Below are positions 16,927-56,923 of a DNA stretch of 58,889 nt, piece by piece; within the stretch, counting starts at the first letter, position 1, and every line of letters begins with the position of its first letter. A program made the position numbers and the translations under genes. The notes beneath the pieces are model-generated. The model was not told where the DNA came from and did no database searches. It worked only from the letters and a program-made list of their open reading frames with translations. Source of the stretch: Parabacteroides sp. OttesenSCG-928-G21 (GTDB lineage Bacteria > Bacteroidota > Bacteroidia > Bacteroidales > Tannerellaceae); NCBI GenBank assembly GCA_030266465.1, contig JAJDIA010000002.1:1-58889 (forward strand), written 5' to 3'.

Positions 16927-17106
16927 CTCTACATTAATATAACAGCCCGTCCTGCCGAAAGTTCATTTTTTTCAACAATAATCACATTAGTTTTAAATAG
17001 GGATTGCCCTCAAACATAAAAATAACGTACATCCGCTATAAGTTTAATGTAATTTCTCCGTAAGAACTATACAACGAATCCATATAGTCATCGTCATCTT
17101 TTTTAC

Positions 17107-17193
17107 TTTTGACTCCTGTGAAAAAGCTTTTTGACTGCAGTGATAAATCTTTTCCACTCCTGTAGAAAAGCTTTTCGACTCCTGTCAAAAACA
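17107..17193. repeat. 22-bp-period palindrome array D (AC-TCCT-GT type, 4 units)
   Basis: Four imperfect inverted repeats of the form TTTT-S-AC-N4-GT-N-AAAA follow each other. The AC of each core falls at 17112, 17134, 17156 and 17178, so the spacing is exactly 22 nt three times. Cores are TCCT, TGCA, TCCT and TCCT. Outer arms are A/T rich and partly complementary. The architecture is the same as in the CCGG-type arrays at 24.6, 39.7 and 49.4 kb although the sequence differs. Confidence 0.8.
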
Positions 17194-24452: not shown

Positions 24453-24608
24453 AAGCGATAGGTTAAAAATTAATACAGAACTATTATGCGCAATATATGC
24501 ACTTTATCCATAACATTAAGTATTATTTCATGTAAAAAAGTCACAGTACTTCAATGAAAAAGAAAAATATTCGTTGATCTTTTCAGGCAGCATTGTAATG
24601 AAAAATTA

Positions 24609-24717
24609 TTTAGACCCGGGTGTAATCCGATTTATACCCGGGTGTAATTTTGTTTAGACCCGGGTCAAAATTAATTTAAACCCGGGTCTAACAGATTTTA
24701 TATCCGGGGTAAACAGA
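24609..24717. repeat. 22-bp-period palindrome array A (AC-CCGG-GT type, 5 units)
   Basis: Five units of 21-22 bp, each with a central ACCCGGGT and A/T-rich outer arms (for example TTTAGACCCGGGTGTAAT). The core AC positions are 24614, 24636, 24658, 24680 and 24702, all 22 nt apart. The last unit is degenerate (AT-CCGG-GG). Just before it, TTGTAATGAAAA also occurs next to array C at 49.5 kb. No open reading frame covers the array. Confidence 0.88.
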
Positions 24718-24794
24718 TTTTCCGTTGCAATCTTTTTTCGTTTTCATGACGAACAAAAAACTTTTTTTATACGGTCTTGCCGAAAAATAAATCT

Positions 24795-39654: not shown

Positions 39655-39728
39655 TATGCTCCTTTTATTGCAATAAATATAGCTTTTCATTACAACGATC
39701 TACCCGTTTCATTGCATACTTTTAATCG
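39655..39728 (+). repeat. 74-nt conserved flank of array B
   Basis: This flank is about 90% identical (some 7 differences) to the reverse complement of 49516-49589, beside array C. Shared landmarks are ATTGCAATAAA, AGCTTTTCATTACAACGATC and TACCCGTTTCAT. It ends directly at the first palindrome. Confidence 0.9.
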
Positions 39729-39815
39729 TTCCACCTGGGTGAGTCGACCGTTCCACCCAGGTGAATCGATCGTTCTACCCGGGTGGAACAGGCGTCTCAC
39801 CCAGGTGGAACGATT
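39728..39815. repeat. 22-bp-period palindrome array B (4 units)
   Basis: Four head-to-tail 22-bp units, each an 18-bp imperfect palindrome such as GTTCTACCCGGGTGGAAC followed by a 4-bp spacer. Core AC positions are 39733, 39755, 39777 and 39799. Cores are CTGG, CCAG, CCGG and CCAG. The array is closed by TTTAATCG on the left and CGATTAAA on the right, itself an inverted repeat. The end CGATTAAACCATTAC is also shared with array C. Confidence 0.92.
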
Positions 39816-49418: not shown

Positions 49419-49589
49419 GTAATGATTTAATCGATTCACCCGGGTGGAACGGTTGACTCACCCGGGTGGAACGACCGTCTCACCTGGGTGGAACGCTCGT
49501 CTCACCCGGGTGAATCGATTAAAAGTATGTGATGAAACGGGTAGATCGTTGTAATGAAAAGCTTAGTTTATTGCAATTAAAGGAGAATA
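49419..49589 (-). repeat. Palindrome array C with its conserved flank
   Basis: Array C has four 22-bp units at 49433-49520 with core AC at 49438, 49460, 49482 and 49504 and cores CCGG, CCGG, CTGG and CCGG. Units are 18-bp palindromes such as GACTCACCCGGGTGGAAC plus a 4-bp spacer. The flank at 49516-49589 and the end at 49419-49433 match array B in inverted orientation at about 90% identity. It lies between two convergent genes (ABC ATPase and DUF456). Confidence 0.92.
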
Positions 49590-51383: not shown

Positions 51384-54125
51384 ATGAGAAGGAAATTGAT
51401 AATAATACCGGTGTTGTTTCTTTTTGTTGTGTCTGTATTTGCACAGCAAAAGGTAACTGTTCGTATGGAACAACAATTGCTTACTGATTTGTTTGAGGTT
51501 ATAGAGCAGCAAACAAATTATCGGATATATTCTCTACCGGCCGATACCGATTCTTTGCGAATTTCTGTCAATGTAGTCGATGAAGAAGTATTGACTGTAC
51601 TTCAGCAAGCTTTAGAGAGAACATCTCTGAAGGTCTCACAATATGCAAATAGTTTCTTTATTACAGATAGTGAATTGATCACATCTTTGCCTGAAGGTTA
51701 TTTTGACCGGGAAAGGGCGATTGAAACAGAAGGTTCTGATATTTCCGGATTGTCATTGAGCCAGCGTACGCAACGTGCTTCATCAGAAAATAAGGTGTAT
51801 GAGATTGGCGATCCTTCAGCTAATCCAACAGGAAGGGTGAATTTAAGTGGAACTTTAATTGATTTTAAAACAGGAGAGGCTGTTGTTGGTGCTACTTTGT
51901 TTATTGAAGAGCCAATGATTGGTGTGACTTCGGATGCTTATGGCTATTATACGATACAGCTTCCTGCCGGACGTCATGAATTAAATATTCGTGGTATGGG
52001 ACTGAAGGATACACGTCGACAGATAGTTCTGCACTCGGACGGGAAAATGGATATAGAGTTGGAGGAAGAGGTCTATGCCTTAAGAGAAGTTGTGATAGCC
52101 GGGGATCGGGTACAAAACGTGAGACGTACGACGATGGGGGTTGAACGCTTGCAAGTTCGGGATATTAAAAATATTCCGACCGCCTTTGGAGAGGTTGATG
52201 TGATTAAAGCTGTATTATTATTGCCGGGAGTGAAGTCAGTAGGCGAGGCTTCCAGTGGCTTTAATGTCCGGGGAGGTTCGACAGATCAAAATCTGATTCT
52301 TTTTAATGATGGAACTATATATAACCCCACACACTTGTTTGGCTTTTTCTCTGCATTTAATTCTGATTTGATCCGGGATATGGAGCTTTACAAGAGTAGT
52401 ATACCTGCAAAATATGGTGGCCGTATTTCTTCCGTATTGGATATAAATACCCGGGAGGGGAATAAAAAAGAATTTGGCGGTTCGGCAAGTATAGGTTTGT
52501 TGACTAGTAGCCTAACACTGGAAGGCCCTTTGTTTAGCGATAAAACATCTTATATTATAGGTGGGAGAACGACTTATTCCGATTGGATTTTAAAACAATT
52601 GCCGGAAGACAGTGGCTATCGGGATGGAAGTGCTGGTTTTTATGACTTAAATGCATCTATTAATCACAAATTTAGTGATTATGACAATCTTTCCATCAAT
52701 GGATATTTTAGTAATGACCGTTTCCGGTTTACAGATGAAGAACGTTATTCTTATCAAAATGCCAATGCATCTATAAAATGGCGACATATCTTTAATCCTA
52801 AACTGACTAGTACGATTACAGCCGGTTATGATCACTACGATTATGACACAAAAAATACAGAAAATGCAGCGAATGCTTTTTCTATGGCGTTTGATATTAA
52901 TCAATATTTTGGGAAAGCAGATTTTACCTGGTATGTAAATGACCAACATACACTTGATTTTGGAATGAATGGATTGTTGTATAACCTAAATCCGGGGACC
53001 TATCTTCCGGAGGGCAGTGAGTCTTTAGTTGTTGAAGATCGTTTACAGAAAGAAAAGGCTATAGAGTCAGGTATTTATGTGGAGGACAGATGGGATATTC
53101 TTCCGGGTCTTTCAGTAAATGCGGGAATACGTTATTCCATGTTTAATGTTATGGGGCCAAGAGACTATTATACCTATCAGGATGAATATATACCATCATT
53201 ATCTACGGTGGTAGATACGGTATCGGTTGGTGGTAAGGCATTTAAAACATATCATGGTCCGGAATTCCGTTTGTCTGCACGGTATGAATTCGACAATACT
53301 TTTTCAATAAAGGCAGGATTTAATACGATGAGACAGAATATTCATAAAATATCAAATACCACTGTGATGTCACCTACAGATACCTGGAAACTCAGTGATG
53401 CGAATATCAAGCCTCAGACTGGCTCTCAATTAGCTTTGGGACTTTATAAGAATTTTGCTAATAATACCATTGAAACATCAATAGAAGCTTATTATAAAAA
53501 GATGAATGATTATTTGGATTATCGCAATGGCGCAGAATTGTTGATGAATCATCATCTTGAAACAGATGTGTTGAACACAGAAGGACGAGCTTATGGAGTA
53601 GAGTTGATGGTAAAAAAGACACAAGGTAAACTAAATGGTTGGATCAGCTATACATATTCTCGTACAGAGCTTCGTCAAAATGATCCTAAAGTTATAGATC
53701 CGGTTAATAATGGAGATTGGTATCCTGCGGACTATGATAAGCCTCATGATTTTAAGTTTGTCGGGAATTATAAATTTACACATCGTTTCAGTTTTTCAAT
53801 GAACCTTGATTACAGCACCGGTCGTCCGATTACATTACCTGTTTCAAAATATAATTATGCAGGAGGAGAGTATGTTTATTTCTCTGATAGAAACAAATAT
53901 CGTATCCCTGATTTCTTCCGAATTGACGCATCCATTAATATAGAACCAAGTCATAATTTGACTAAACTGACACATAGCTCCGTTTCCATAGGAGTATATA
54001 ATTTGACAGGGCGAAAAAATGCTTATTCTGTATATTATATTGCAGAGGAAGGAAAGCTTAAGGGATATAAACTTGCGATTTTCGGAGTGCCAATTCCTTA
54101 TATATCTTATAATATTAAATTTTAA
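51384..54125 (+). CDS. TonB-dependent receptor with STN and carboxypeptidase-like domains
   Basis: A 913-residue outer-membrane transporter. A signal peptide (residues ~1-20) is followed by an STN/secretin-like domain (about 25-105), a carboxypeptidase-regulatory-like beta-sandwich (about 152-235, VNLSGTLIDFKTGEAVVGA), a plug domain (about 245-370, with GFNVRGGSTDQNLILFNDG) and a beta-barrel ending in Phe (ISYNIKF). The STN domain usually contacts an anti-sigma factor, but no FecR or sigma gene is adjacent. No SusD gene follows, so it is not a classical polysaccharide locus. Substrate unknown. Confidence 0.92.
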   Translation: MRRKLIIIPVLFLFVVSVFAQQKVTVRMEQQLLTDLFEVIEQQTNYRIYSLPADTDSLRISVNVVDEEVLTVLQQALERTSLKVSQYANSFFITDSELITSLPEGYFDRERAIETEGSDISGLSLSQRTQRASSENKVYEIGDPSANPTGRVNLSGTLIDFKTGEAVVGATLFIEEPMIGVTSDAYGYYTIQLPAGRHELNIRGMGLKDTRRQIVLHSDGKMDIELEEEVYALREVVIAGDRVQNVRRTTMGVERLQVRDIKNIPTAFGEVDVIKAVLLLPGVKSVGEASSGFNVRGGSTDQNLILFNDGTIYNPTHLFGFFSAFNSDLIRDMELYKSSIPAKYGGRISSVLDINTREGNKKEFGGSASIGLLTSSLTLEGPLFSDKTSYIIGGRTTYSDWILKQLPEDSGYRDGSAGFYDLNASINHKFSDYDNLSINGYFSNDRFRFTDEERYSYQNANASIKWRHIFNPKLTSTITAGYDHYDYDTKNTENAANAFSMAFDINQYFGKADFTWYVNDQHTLDFGMNGLLYNLNPGTYLPEGSESLVVEDRLQKEKAIESGIYVEDRWDILPGLSVNAGIRYSMFNVMGPRDYYTYQDEYIPSLSTVVDTVSVGGKAFKTYHGPEFRLSARYEFDNTFSIKAGFNTMRQNIHKISNTTVMSPTDTWKLSDANIKPQTGSQLALGLYKNFANNTIETSIEAYYKKMNDYLDYRNGAELLMNHHLETDVLNTEGRAYGVELMVKKTQGKLNGWISYTYSRTELRQNDPKVIDPVNNGDWYPADYDKPHDFKFVGNYKFTHRFSFSMNLDYSTGRPITLPVSKYNYAGGEYVYFSDRNKYRIPDFFRIDASINIEPSHNLTKLTHSSVSIGVYNLTGRKNAYSVYYIAEEGKLKGYKLAIFGVPIPYISYNIKF

Positions 54126-54126
54126 A

Positions 54127-55146
54127 ATGAAAACAATAAAGAAAATATTATGTTTTGCAGTGTTGATTAGTAGTGTTCTATCAAGCTGTATTGAGGAGTT
54201 TGTTCCCCGTGATGTGGAAAGGGTGAGTGGTATACTTATTGTAGATGGACATATAACCAACGATGAATCTATTATTACATTAAGGTATAGTGTAGGAATG
54301 CAAGATACACTTATCGGTAATGAAACAATAGATCATGCATTGGTATTTGTAGAGACAGATAAGGGGCAGAAGATGCAAGGGGTTTTTCAAGAAAAAGGAA
54401 AATATGTTGTACCCACAGGAACTTTATATTCCGATACCCAGTATAAACTACATATTTTATTAGACGGACAAGAATATGAATCAACATTTCTTTTCCCGTT
54501 ATATACAGTTGAAATAGATACTTTATATGTAACGAAAGAAGGAAGGGGTGAACCGGTTAATGTTAATTTGGTTACACATGGTCAAGAGGATGATTCAAAA
54601 TACTATTTTTGGTCGTACAATGAAATATGGGAATATAGGGCAGAATTGTTTGCTAATGCGGGTTATATTGGAGGGGAGTTTATGTTTTTTAATCTATATA
54701 CTTCTAATAATTCTTATTATTGTTGGGCTCGGAATAATTCGAAGAGCCTAATAGTAGGATCAACAACAAAGCTATCCCAAAATATGATGCAAAAAAAAAT
54801 AATTGAAATACCTCCCAACCATGATAAATTATCTATGCTATATTATATATCTATTCAACAAAAAATGATACGAAAGGAAACTTATGATTATTATCAGAAT
54901 TTACAAAACAATGTAGATTTAACAGGAAGTATTTTTTCTCCTATCCCTGCTGAAATAAAAGGGAATATTTCATGTATAAATAATTCTGATATTCCTGTAA
55001 TCGGATATATAGATGTTACTACTACTACTGAAAAATCATTGTTTGTTCCTACCAGTGGAGAATTATATGAACCCAAAATATCTAATTGTATTTATTCGGT
55101 GACGGATGATCCGGATTCAGGTTATCCTATATATATATATATATAG
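54127..55146 (+). CDS. DUF4249 lipoprotein, cut short at a (TA)9 repeat
   Basis: As read, 339 residues, starting one base after the receptor stop codon (an upstream in-frame start lies within the receptor gene). The lipobox is VLSSC, with Cys near residue 20. The family core begins VERVSGILIVDGHITNDES, as usual for DUF4249 proteins, which are surface partners of TonB receptors. The end is abnormal: the sequence runs into PIYIYI and a stop codon made by a (TA)9 repeat. The expected Cys- and Trp-containing C-terminus (VCVDCRAKGG, PDFW) is intact in another frame at 55143-55235. Loss of one TA unit, or gain of two, would restore a protein of 368 or 370 residues. Confidence 0.85.
   Translation: MKTIKKILCFAVLISSVLSSCIEEFVPRDVERVSGILIVDGHITNDESIITLRYSVGMQDTLIGNETIDHALVFVETDKGQKMQGVFQEKGKYVVPTGTLYSDTQYKLHILLDGQEYESTFLFPLYTVEIDTLYVTKEGRGEPVNVNLVTHGQEDDSKYYFWSYNEIWEYRAELFANAGYIGGEFMFFNLYTSNNSYYCWARNNSKSLIVGSTTKLSQNMMQKKIIEIPPNHDKLSMLYYISIQQKMIRKETYDYYQNLQNNVDLTGSIFSPIPAEIKGNISCINNSDIPVIGYIDVTTTTEKSLFVPTSGELYEPKISNCIYSVTDDPDSGYPIYIYI
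55128..55145. repeat. (TA)9 microsatellite inside the DUF4249 gene
   Basis: Eighteen bases of pure TA end directly in the stop codon TAG (55144-55146). The repeat lies near the 3' end of the gene, and its length fixes the reading frame of the last ~29 residues. Eight or eleven units would be in frame; nine are not. Such repeats are hot spots for slipped-strand mispairing. Confidence 0.95.
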
Positions 55147-55235
55147 ATTCTTATGCGCCGAAAGTCTGTGTCGATTGCCGGGCGAAAGGTGGTTCAAAAA
55201 ACAAACCAGATTTCTGGCCAACAGATCATTTATAA
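55143..55235 (+). pseudogene. Displaced C-terminus of the DUF4249 protein
   Basis: In the frame two bases away from the upstream coding frame, the sequence reads IDSYAPKVCVDCRAKGG and then SKNKPDFWPTDHL before a TAA stop at 55233-55235. CxxC followed by Gly-Gly and then PDFW is the usual end of DUF4249 proteins. The next gene starts eight bases later, matching the tight spacing seen elsewhere in this operon, which supports this as the true end. Confidence 0.85.
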
Positions 55236-55243
55236 TATAGCGT

Positions 55244-56923
55244 ATGAAAAGGAATTATATTATAGTATTTTTATTATTCATGCTTAGTATACAGTATACT
55301 ACGGCAGAGAATATGAGAGAAAGAGTGTATTTGCAGACAGATAAACAAACCTATCTGGCAGGTGAATTACTTTGGATGAAGCTATATTTAACAGATGCAG
55401 AAGGGAAGCCCTCCCCGTTAAGTAAAGTCGGCTATGTTGAATTGTTGGATGCGGAATCTGTTCAGGTGCAAGTCAAGCTGGATATTTCAGAAGGAACAGG
55501 CGAGGGCTGGTTAGAGCTTCCGATAACACTCCCAACAGGCTATTACCGCCTTGTCGCTTACTCTCGGTATATGCAAAATGAAGGAGATGAAGTCTTCTTC
55601 CAGAAGAATATAGGCGTGATCAATACTTTTCTGATTGATAAAACAGTTGAAATAGATAATTCCCTTACCGAGCCGACATTCTCAGTACTGGATAACACCC
55701 TGTCAGTCATAATGGCTAATTCGAGAACTAAACCTCGTACCGAAAACAGTATTCAGATACAAGGACTGCCGGAAGACGTCCACTCCTTAGCCATTTCCGT
55801 TGCTGGAAAAGATCTTGTACAGGACGGAAGTGTATTGAATATCAGCCAATGGCAGGATCAACTGCCGGCAACTATAACTACAACTACAACTGCGATACGT
55901 TCTGATTTCCTCCCGGAATACGAAGGACATATCATCAATGCTAAATTGATAAACGTAGCAACCGGACAACCGGAAACAACAGAAAAAGTATCCTCCCTAT
56001 TAGGATTTGTAGGAGAAGATATCCGTCTTTTCGACGGCGTCTCCGATAACCAGGGGAACGTCCAATATGTTACGAAAAGAATAACCGGCCGCCAGGAATT
56101 AGCTACCGCGACATTCCCACAATCAGAAAACAAATTCAGAGTAGATATCCAGTCCCCCTTTGCCGTGCACCCGAAAGCCGATCTGCCCACTTTCAAGTTA
56201 AACTCCGCCTGGGAGCAACAACTTTTGCAGCGCAGCGTCGGACTCCAGGTCTTATACAGCTACATGGCCGACTCCCTAAGTATAATGGAACGAACAACTC
56301 CACACTTCCAATGGAAGCCATACAGTTCCTACATCCTGGATAACTACACCCGCTTCACCCGTATGGACGAGGTAGTCATAGAATTCGTCACTTTGCTCAG
56401 CTTTAGGAATATCGACAGGAAAAGACAACTACATCTCTTCATCGAAAAGAACGTCGGTCGCGGAGCAGGCAGTACGTTGGCCCTCTTAGACGGTATCCCG
56501 ATCACAGACCATAACATCCTCTATAACTACGACCCCTTGCTGGTTCAGCGCATAGAGCTGTATCGGGAGCGATTTGATTTCAACGGCCAATTCTTCGACG
56601 GCCTCGTCTCCTTTACCACCTATGCGAACAACTACCCCACGCTGCAGCTCGACGAATCCACGCAAATATTCGACTACGAAGGCACGCAAGCTCGCCGGCT
56701 CTTTTACGCCCCCTCTTATAAGAACGAGGCAGAACGAAACAGCCGTACACCGGACTATCGCCACACCTTGCTGTGGATACCCGAAGTTGATACGCACGGA
56801 AACTCATCGGTAACGATCCCATTCAGCACCTCGGACCTGACGGGAGAATTCCAAGTCGTCATCGAAGGTTTAACAAAAGACGGAAAGCCTTTACGAGGAA
56901 TCACATATTTTGATGTAGAATAA
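55244..56923 (+). CDS. MG2 (alpha-2-macroglobulin-like) domain surface protein
   Basis: A 559-residue protein with a signal peptide (residues ~1-21, cut near YTTAE). Residues ~25-115 form an MG2-type beta-sandwich (RVYLQTDKQTYLAGELLWMKLYL, TGYYRLVAYSRYMQNEGDE). Later parts contain more beta-sandwich repeats and a region like a TonB plug (GSTLALLDGIPITDHNILYN). The protein ends in a beta-rich domain. Such MG2 proteins occur with TonB receptors and DUF4249 lipoproteins in Bacteroidetes. The 3' part of the gene, from about 56.1 kb, is clearly richer in G and C than the 5' part. Confidence 0.82.
   Translation: MKRNYIIVFLLFMLSIQYTTAENMRERVYLQTDKQTYLAGELLWMKLYLTDAEGKPSPLSKVGYVELLDAESVQVQVKLDISEGTGEGWLELPITLPTGYYRLVAYSRYMQNEGDEVFFQKNIGVINTFLIDKTVEIDNSLTEPTFSVLDNTLSVIMANSRTKPRTENSIQIQGLPEDVHSLAISVAGKDLVQDGSVLNISQWQDQLPATITTTTTAIRSDFLPEYEGHIINAKLINVATGQPETTEKVSSLLGFVGEDIRLFDGVSDNQGNVQYVTKRITGRQELATATFPQSENKFRVDIQSPFAVHPKADLPTFKLNSAWEQQLLQRSVGLQVLYSYMADSLSIMERTTPHFQWKPYSSYILDNYTRFTRMDEVVIEFVTLLSFRNIDRKRQLHLFIEKNVGRGAGSTLALLDGIPITDHNILYNYDPLLVQRIELYRERFDFNGQFFDGLVSFTTYANNYPTLQLDESTQIFDYEGTQARRLFYAPSYKNEAERNSRTPDYRHTLLWIPEVDTHGNSSVTIPFSTSDLTGEFQVVIEGLTKDGKPLRGITYFDVE

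Follow-up and report, generated by a model that had tools for sequence, protein, structure and literature searches.

In gut Bacteroidales, phase variation has been described mainly as DNA inversion. The inversions target surface proteins, SusC/D, and fimbriae (review, PMC12632263), and a word search of that review returned the term "slipped" zero times. We found no paper on slipped-strand phase variation in Bacteroidales in a search of the open literature, with subscription journals outside its range. The mechanism is well known in kind: in Mycoplasma mycoides, the methyltransferase gene mmyCImod occurs as AG10 and AG12 in two clones that differ in tract length and in activity (PMC3498834). 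Judged by the open literature searched, a Bacteroidales example would be unusual. A further point of comparison comes from the DUF4249 proteins, which share operons with TonB transporters in a conserved pairing (PMC11003636).

The locus described here, in a member of the Tannerellaceae, shares features with each of these systems. Like mmyCImod, it has an intragenic dinucleotide tract that leaves the gene in frame at one length and brings a stop right after the repeat at another; unlike mmyCImod, it is known from one sequence, its unit is TA, its late position keeps the protein body, and its product is a Bacteroidales surface protein. As in BT2173-BT2172 (PMC11003636), a PF14054 lipoprotein adjoins a TonB-dependent receptor, but here the conserved C-terminus of the lipoprotein is out of frame. 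The target, a surface protein, is also of the kind affected by DNA-inversion phase variation, whereas the mechanism that we propose, repeat slippage, needs no invertible element.

A TA repeat in a DUF4249 lipoprotein gene

The window, by which we mean the whole stretch of DNA analyzed (58,889 nucleotides), is contig C88 of a MAG-like, 54%-complete assembly in 175 contigs (G000) of an uncultured, gut-type bacterium, the sole member of its own genus in the genome collection compared. Among named organisms, Parabacteroides and other Tannerellaceae stand closest to it, and the locus is syntenic with that of Parabacteroides sp. PH5-46. Alignment yielded 19 related loci, mostly from named Tannerellaceae and none (0/19) from the same species; a single-protein search of genome contigs found no close relatives, and a search of viral contigs did not find the flank pattern. 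The gene order is a 256-aa protein (no Pfam match), a TonB-dependent receptor, the DUF4249 lipoprotein, and an MG2-domain protein, and the features of the locus are as follows.

51384 to 54125, plus strand: TonB-dependent receptor (CarboxypepD_reg_2, plug, and barrel), intact, 913 aa (open reading frame and Pfam)
54127 to 55146, plus strand: DUF4249 (PF14054) lipoprotein gene, present form 339 aa, ending in the repeat (Pfam)
54791 to 54799, plus strand: A9 run within the DUF4249 gene, in frame, a second potentially unstable tract (direct reading)
55128 to 55145, no strand assigned: pure (TA)9 microsatellite (direct reading and TRF)
55146 to 55235, plus strand: conserved C-terminus DSYAPKVCVDCRAKGGSKNKPDFWPTDHL and TAA, out of frame, read at 5, 8, or 11 units (phases and homologues)
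55146 to 55240, plus strand: unrelated 31-residue tail RFLCAESLCRLPGERWFKKQTRFLANRSFII of the 7- or 10-unit phase (computed phases)
55244 to 56923, plus strand: MG2-domain protein, intact, 559 aa, beginning 8 bases past the restored stop (open reading frame and Pfam)

The DUF4249 product begins with a signal peptide that has a lipobox cysteine (LSSC), and residues 29 to 304 match PF14054 (E = 5.3e-30; 105.3 bits against a curated cut-off of 28.5). Its ATG at 54127 lies one base after the receptor stop (TAA, 54123 to 54125). An earlier note on this DNA had named the gene a DUF4249 lipoprotein in a TonB-receptor context, and both the domain match and the adjoining receptor confirm that assignment. 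Elsewhere in the window, 22-bp tandem repeats form four arrays (17106 to 17191, 24608 to 24720, 39727 to 39785, and 49436 to 49519), three of which have the core ACCCGGGT in common.

The note had also proposed that (TA)9 supplies the stop codon of the gene, and direct reading and TRF bear this out: the local sequence is ...GGTTATCC(TA)9GATTCTTATGCG..., and the last TA unit together with the following G forms the TAG at 55144 to 55146. By computed phases, a change in unit number shifts the gene between an intact and an interrupted product. With 5, 8, or 11 units the frame continues as ...YIDSYAPKVCVDCRAKGGSKNKPDFWPTDHL to a TAA ending at 55235, 8 bases ahead of the ATG at 55244; with 6, 9, or 12 units it stops at 55146; and with 7 or 10 units it runs into an unrelated 31-residue tail whose stop ends at 55240. 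The computed phases and 43 homologues thus agree with the note that the conserved CxxC/PDFW end is intact in the 8- or 11-unit frame, to which 5 units can be added, and the restored stop lies where the note had placed it. Its description of the OFF form as a nearly full protein with an altered end stands for the body, which is kept (339 aa), but not for the end. The present (TA)9 form is a plain truncation, because nine units stop at 55146 and the altered tail needs 7 or 10. As the note had stated, the gene is otherwise intact: besides the frame loss at (TA)9 no lesion was seen in it, and its A9 run is in frame.

The displaced C-terminus and the origin of the repeat

In the restored frame the gene is open through the conserved end, CVDC...KPDFWPTDHL. 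Each of the 43 homologues with a complete C-terminus has a CxxC close to it, nearly always together with KPxxWP, and this CxxC...KPxxWP motif of the DUF4249 subfamily, which falls outside the Pfam domain, is present in the gene studied here, but out of frame. For three of four homologues, amino acid identity is 0.64 to 0.73 in the out-of-frame tail versus 0.46 to 0.52 in the body, and nucleotide identity in the tail is 0.78 to 0.81 at codon positions 1 and 2 and 0.46 to 0.50 at position 3, in a comparison that spans only ~26 codons; for the fourth, PF5-9, tail and body identities are 0.58 and 0.47. These values are suggestive of a tail on which coding selection acted until a short time ago, or acts intermittently even now, and a tail that remains coding-like while out of frame points to a frame loss that is recent or reversible.

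In the homologue alignment, the repeat coincides with a linker whose length differs widely and that is Tyr-rich in many members. The intact PH5-46 orthologue, as modeled by AlphaFold, has a mean pLDDT of 77; this linker (residues ~331 to 360) is among its least confident parts, with pLDDT blocks of 46 to 62, and the C-terminal motif (~361 to 380) is moderately confident (75 to 81). Given a linker that is length-variable and of low confidence, only the reading frame should matter at the tract. Foldseek with the DUF4249 body matched nothing but tandem Ig/FN3-type domains, and these at low TM, a weak likeness, and a PDB sequence search found no relative of the DUF4249 protein.

Under a dinucleotide Markov model, ~7e-6 (TA)9 starts are expected in the window and ~2e-4 in 1.86 Mb. 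Every other TA run in the genome sequence searched is shorter, the next in length being a non-coding (TA)7 beside apparent ribosomal RNA sequence. The codons of the (TA)9 tract, three ATA and two TAT, have a probability of ~0.008 at the codon usage of this genome, which fits repeat growth at the DNA level; since the linker is Tyr-rich in many homologues, the repeat plausibly grew from its TAT codons. Across the order, 27 of 392 genomes have (TA)9 or longer; one tract was inspected in each of these 27, and only the one described here lies within a clear gene body.

Repeats and frame breaks in relatives and in this assembly

The 125 genomes of the family contain ~32 tracts of (TA)8 or longer, most of them intergenic. 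Four, of (TA)8 to (TA)9.5, are intragenic and out of frame: that of the DUF4249 gene and those at loci L093, L099, and L094. At L093 (1600 to 4727; contig C10 of genome G015), (TA)9 interrupts the frame of a long gene for a fimbrial-type lipoprotein, giving 434 and 622 codons, with a FimA-type gene downstream. In genome G138, a lipoprotein gene following an Mfa2-family gene (L099:885-2371) and a gene for a probable secreted protein (L094:2073-2804) each have an out-of-frame (TA)9 that follows the start codon and precedes the signal peptide; both carry further frame changes, and L099 also breaks at G7. A Laminin_G_3 protein of genome G079 has an intragenic TA tract that is in frame. All four interrupted genes seem to encode surface or secreted proteins; three of them come from one other genus. 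No DUF4249 homologue from other genera has a long TA tract at the same site, and beyond its own genus the tract is therefore not conserved as a switch. In Parabacteroides sp. ZJ-118, (AT)6 and (TA)7 runs lie ~240 to 300 bases upstream of the DUF4249 start (L174:2112-2175).

Frame breaks at poly-G/C runs in relatives (DUF4249 at G8 in G140 and at C8 in G138, and a receptor at G8 in G023) were considered as independent support and set aside: such breaks are common in these MAGs, where runs of this kind split unrelated genes of the genus too, among them L119, which by its sequence alone would be a pyridine-nucleotide-type oxidoreductase, and two related isolates are free of them. The G138 homologue shifts frame at C8 in a conserved YEPP stretch and has also lost the CxxC tail (L041:2330-2620). 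In G023, the whole receptor-DUF4249-MG2 cassette is apparently decaying (L050, on contig C71), with the G8 break in the receptor and with stops and frameshifts in the DUF4249 copies and the MG2 gene. In G100 one base breaks the DUF4249 frame within the linker; G140 has two broken copies of the gene, and G061 a remnant. The genome studied here has an intact DUF4249 paralogue on contig C154.

By open reading frame layout, the basis on which most genes were judged rather than by homology searches, no other gene of the 59-kb window is broken. In a sample of twenty stretches of the assembly (247 kb including the window), ~20 A/T runs of 8 to 9 bases lie within open frames, a count that includes the A9 of the DUF4249 gene, and none coincides with a break. 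Together, the intact genes and the in-frame A/T runs argue against random assembly error. G/C runs of 8 or more bases number only two in the assembly, and both break genes. A G8 run (minus strand; C1:29096-29103, L185:3097-3104) marks the point where the gene of a small lipoprotein changes frame, and a C10 run (C164:4207-4216, L186:4207-4216) divides a DUF6088/AbiEi-like gene between two frames whose products match profile positions 5 to 64 and 64 to 170. The next gene downstream of the split one, AbiEii toxin-like, is intact, and the same contig has an apparent tyrosine recombinase. In two related isolates, G8 or longer runs within clear genes are in frame where this can be judged. The G/C-run breaks can mean either slippage in wild populations or an unreliable MAG consensus, and we counted them for neither side.

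Slippage, loss, or artefact

We propose that the (TA)9 tract may be a slippage-born microsatellite in a flexible, Tyr-rich linker between the DUF4249 body and the CxxC/KPDFWP motif. Slipped-strand mispairing would gain or lose units, giving the conserved C-terminus, the immediate stop of the assembled state, or the unrelated tail, and cells with and without the motif would coexist or alternate. The C-terminal motif probably matters for the work of the lipoprotein with the adjacent TonB receptor, itself a probable partnership for which the evidence is the conserved operon (PMC11003636). The tract, its phases, the conservation of the C-terminus, and the intact neighbors are observed; how fast the tract slips, whether it reverts, what effect the change has, and whether switching is selected are what we infer from them. 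A true slippage-reversible state is the best single account of the locus, with about an even chance of being correct, and the note's reading of the gene as a candidate for phase variation, known from one sequence, is partly supported. A pure 18-bp tract far beyond chance expectation counts for such a switch; the near absence of other intragenic (TA)9 tracts in the order counts against it, as does the family distribution, in which three of the four cases belong to one other genus and some have further breaks.

The truncation could instead be a non-switching loss-of-function allele, a slippage mutation, fixed or transient, in one strain or a sweeping clone, with decay underway or the truncated form sufficing. 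We regard this main rival as a realistic but tentative possibility: DUF4249 cassettes decay in four relatives (G023, G100, G140, and G061) and the paralogue on C154 might compensate for the truncated protein, yet here there is no second lesion, the receptor and MG2 genes are intact, the tail is coding-like, and the lesion falls exactly on the most slippage-prone site. The further lesions and lost coding signature of a decayed pseudogene were not found in the DUF4249 gene. It is unlikely that the true tract has eight units and that the ninth is an assembly or sequencing artefact. The fragmentation of the assembly favors an artefact, as do the G/C runs, which break genes here but not in the isolates, so that long repeats may be miscalled in the MAG consensus; however, the other genes of the window and the coding A/T runs are intact, and an 18-bp dinucleotide tract fits well within one short read. 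Continued synthesis of the tail from (TA)9, whether through transcriptional slippage or through ribosomal frameshifting, would explain why it remains conserved but is highly improbable, as the tract has no known slippery motif, TAG follows at once, and homologues are without the repeat here.

If slippage-reversible switching is the correct reading, it might extend beyond this gene: wild Tannerellaceae might switch surface genes by repeat slippage beside DNA inversion, through (TA)8-10 or G/C8-10 tracts inside the genes of secreted proteins, among them DUF4249 receptor partners and fimbrial lipoproteins. In that case the late tract described here would add or remove a C-terminal motif instead of acting as a simple on/off switch. 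We consider this generalization speculative and rather doubtful. A slippage switch in a TonB-receptor partner, if proven, would be a second mechanism beside DNA inversion, with possible consequences for the uptake of nutrients and for sensitivity to phages at the receptor, and it would suggest a functional role for the CxxC/KPDFWP tail in the uncharacterized DUF4249 family.
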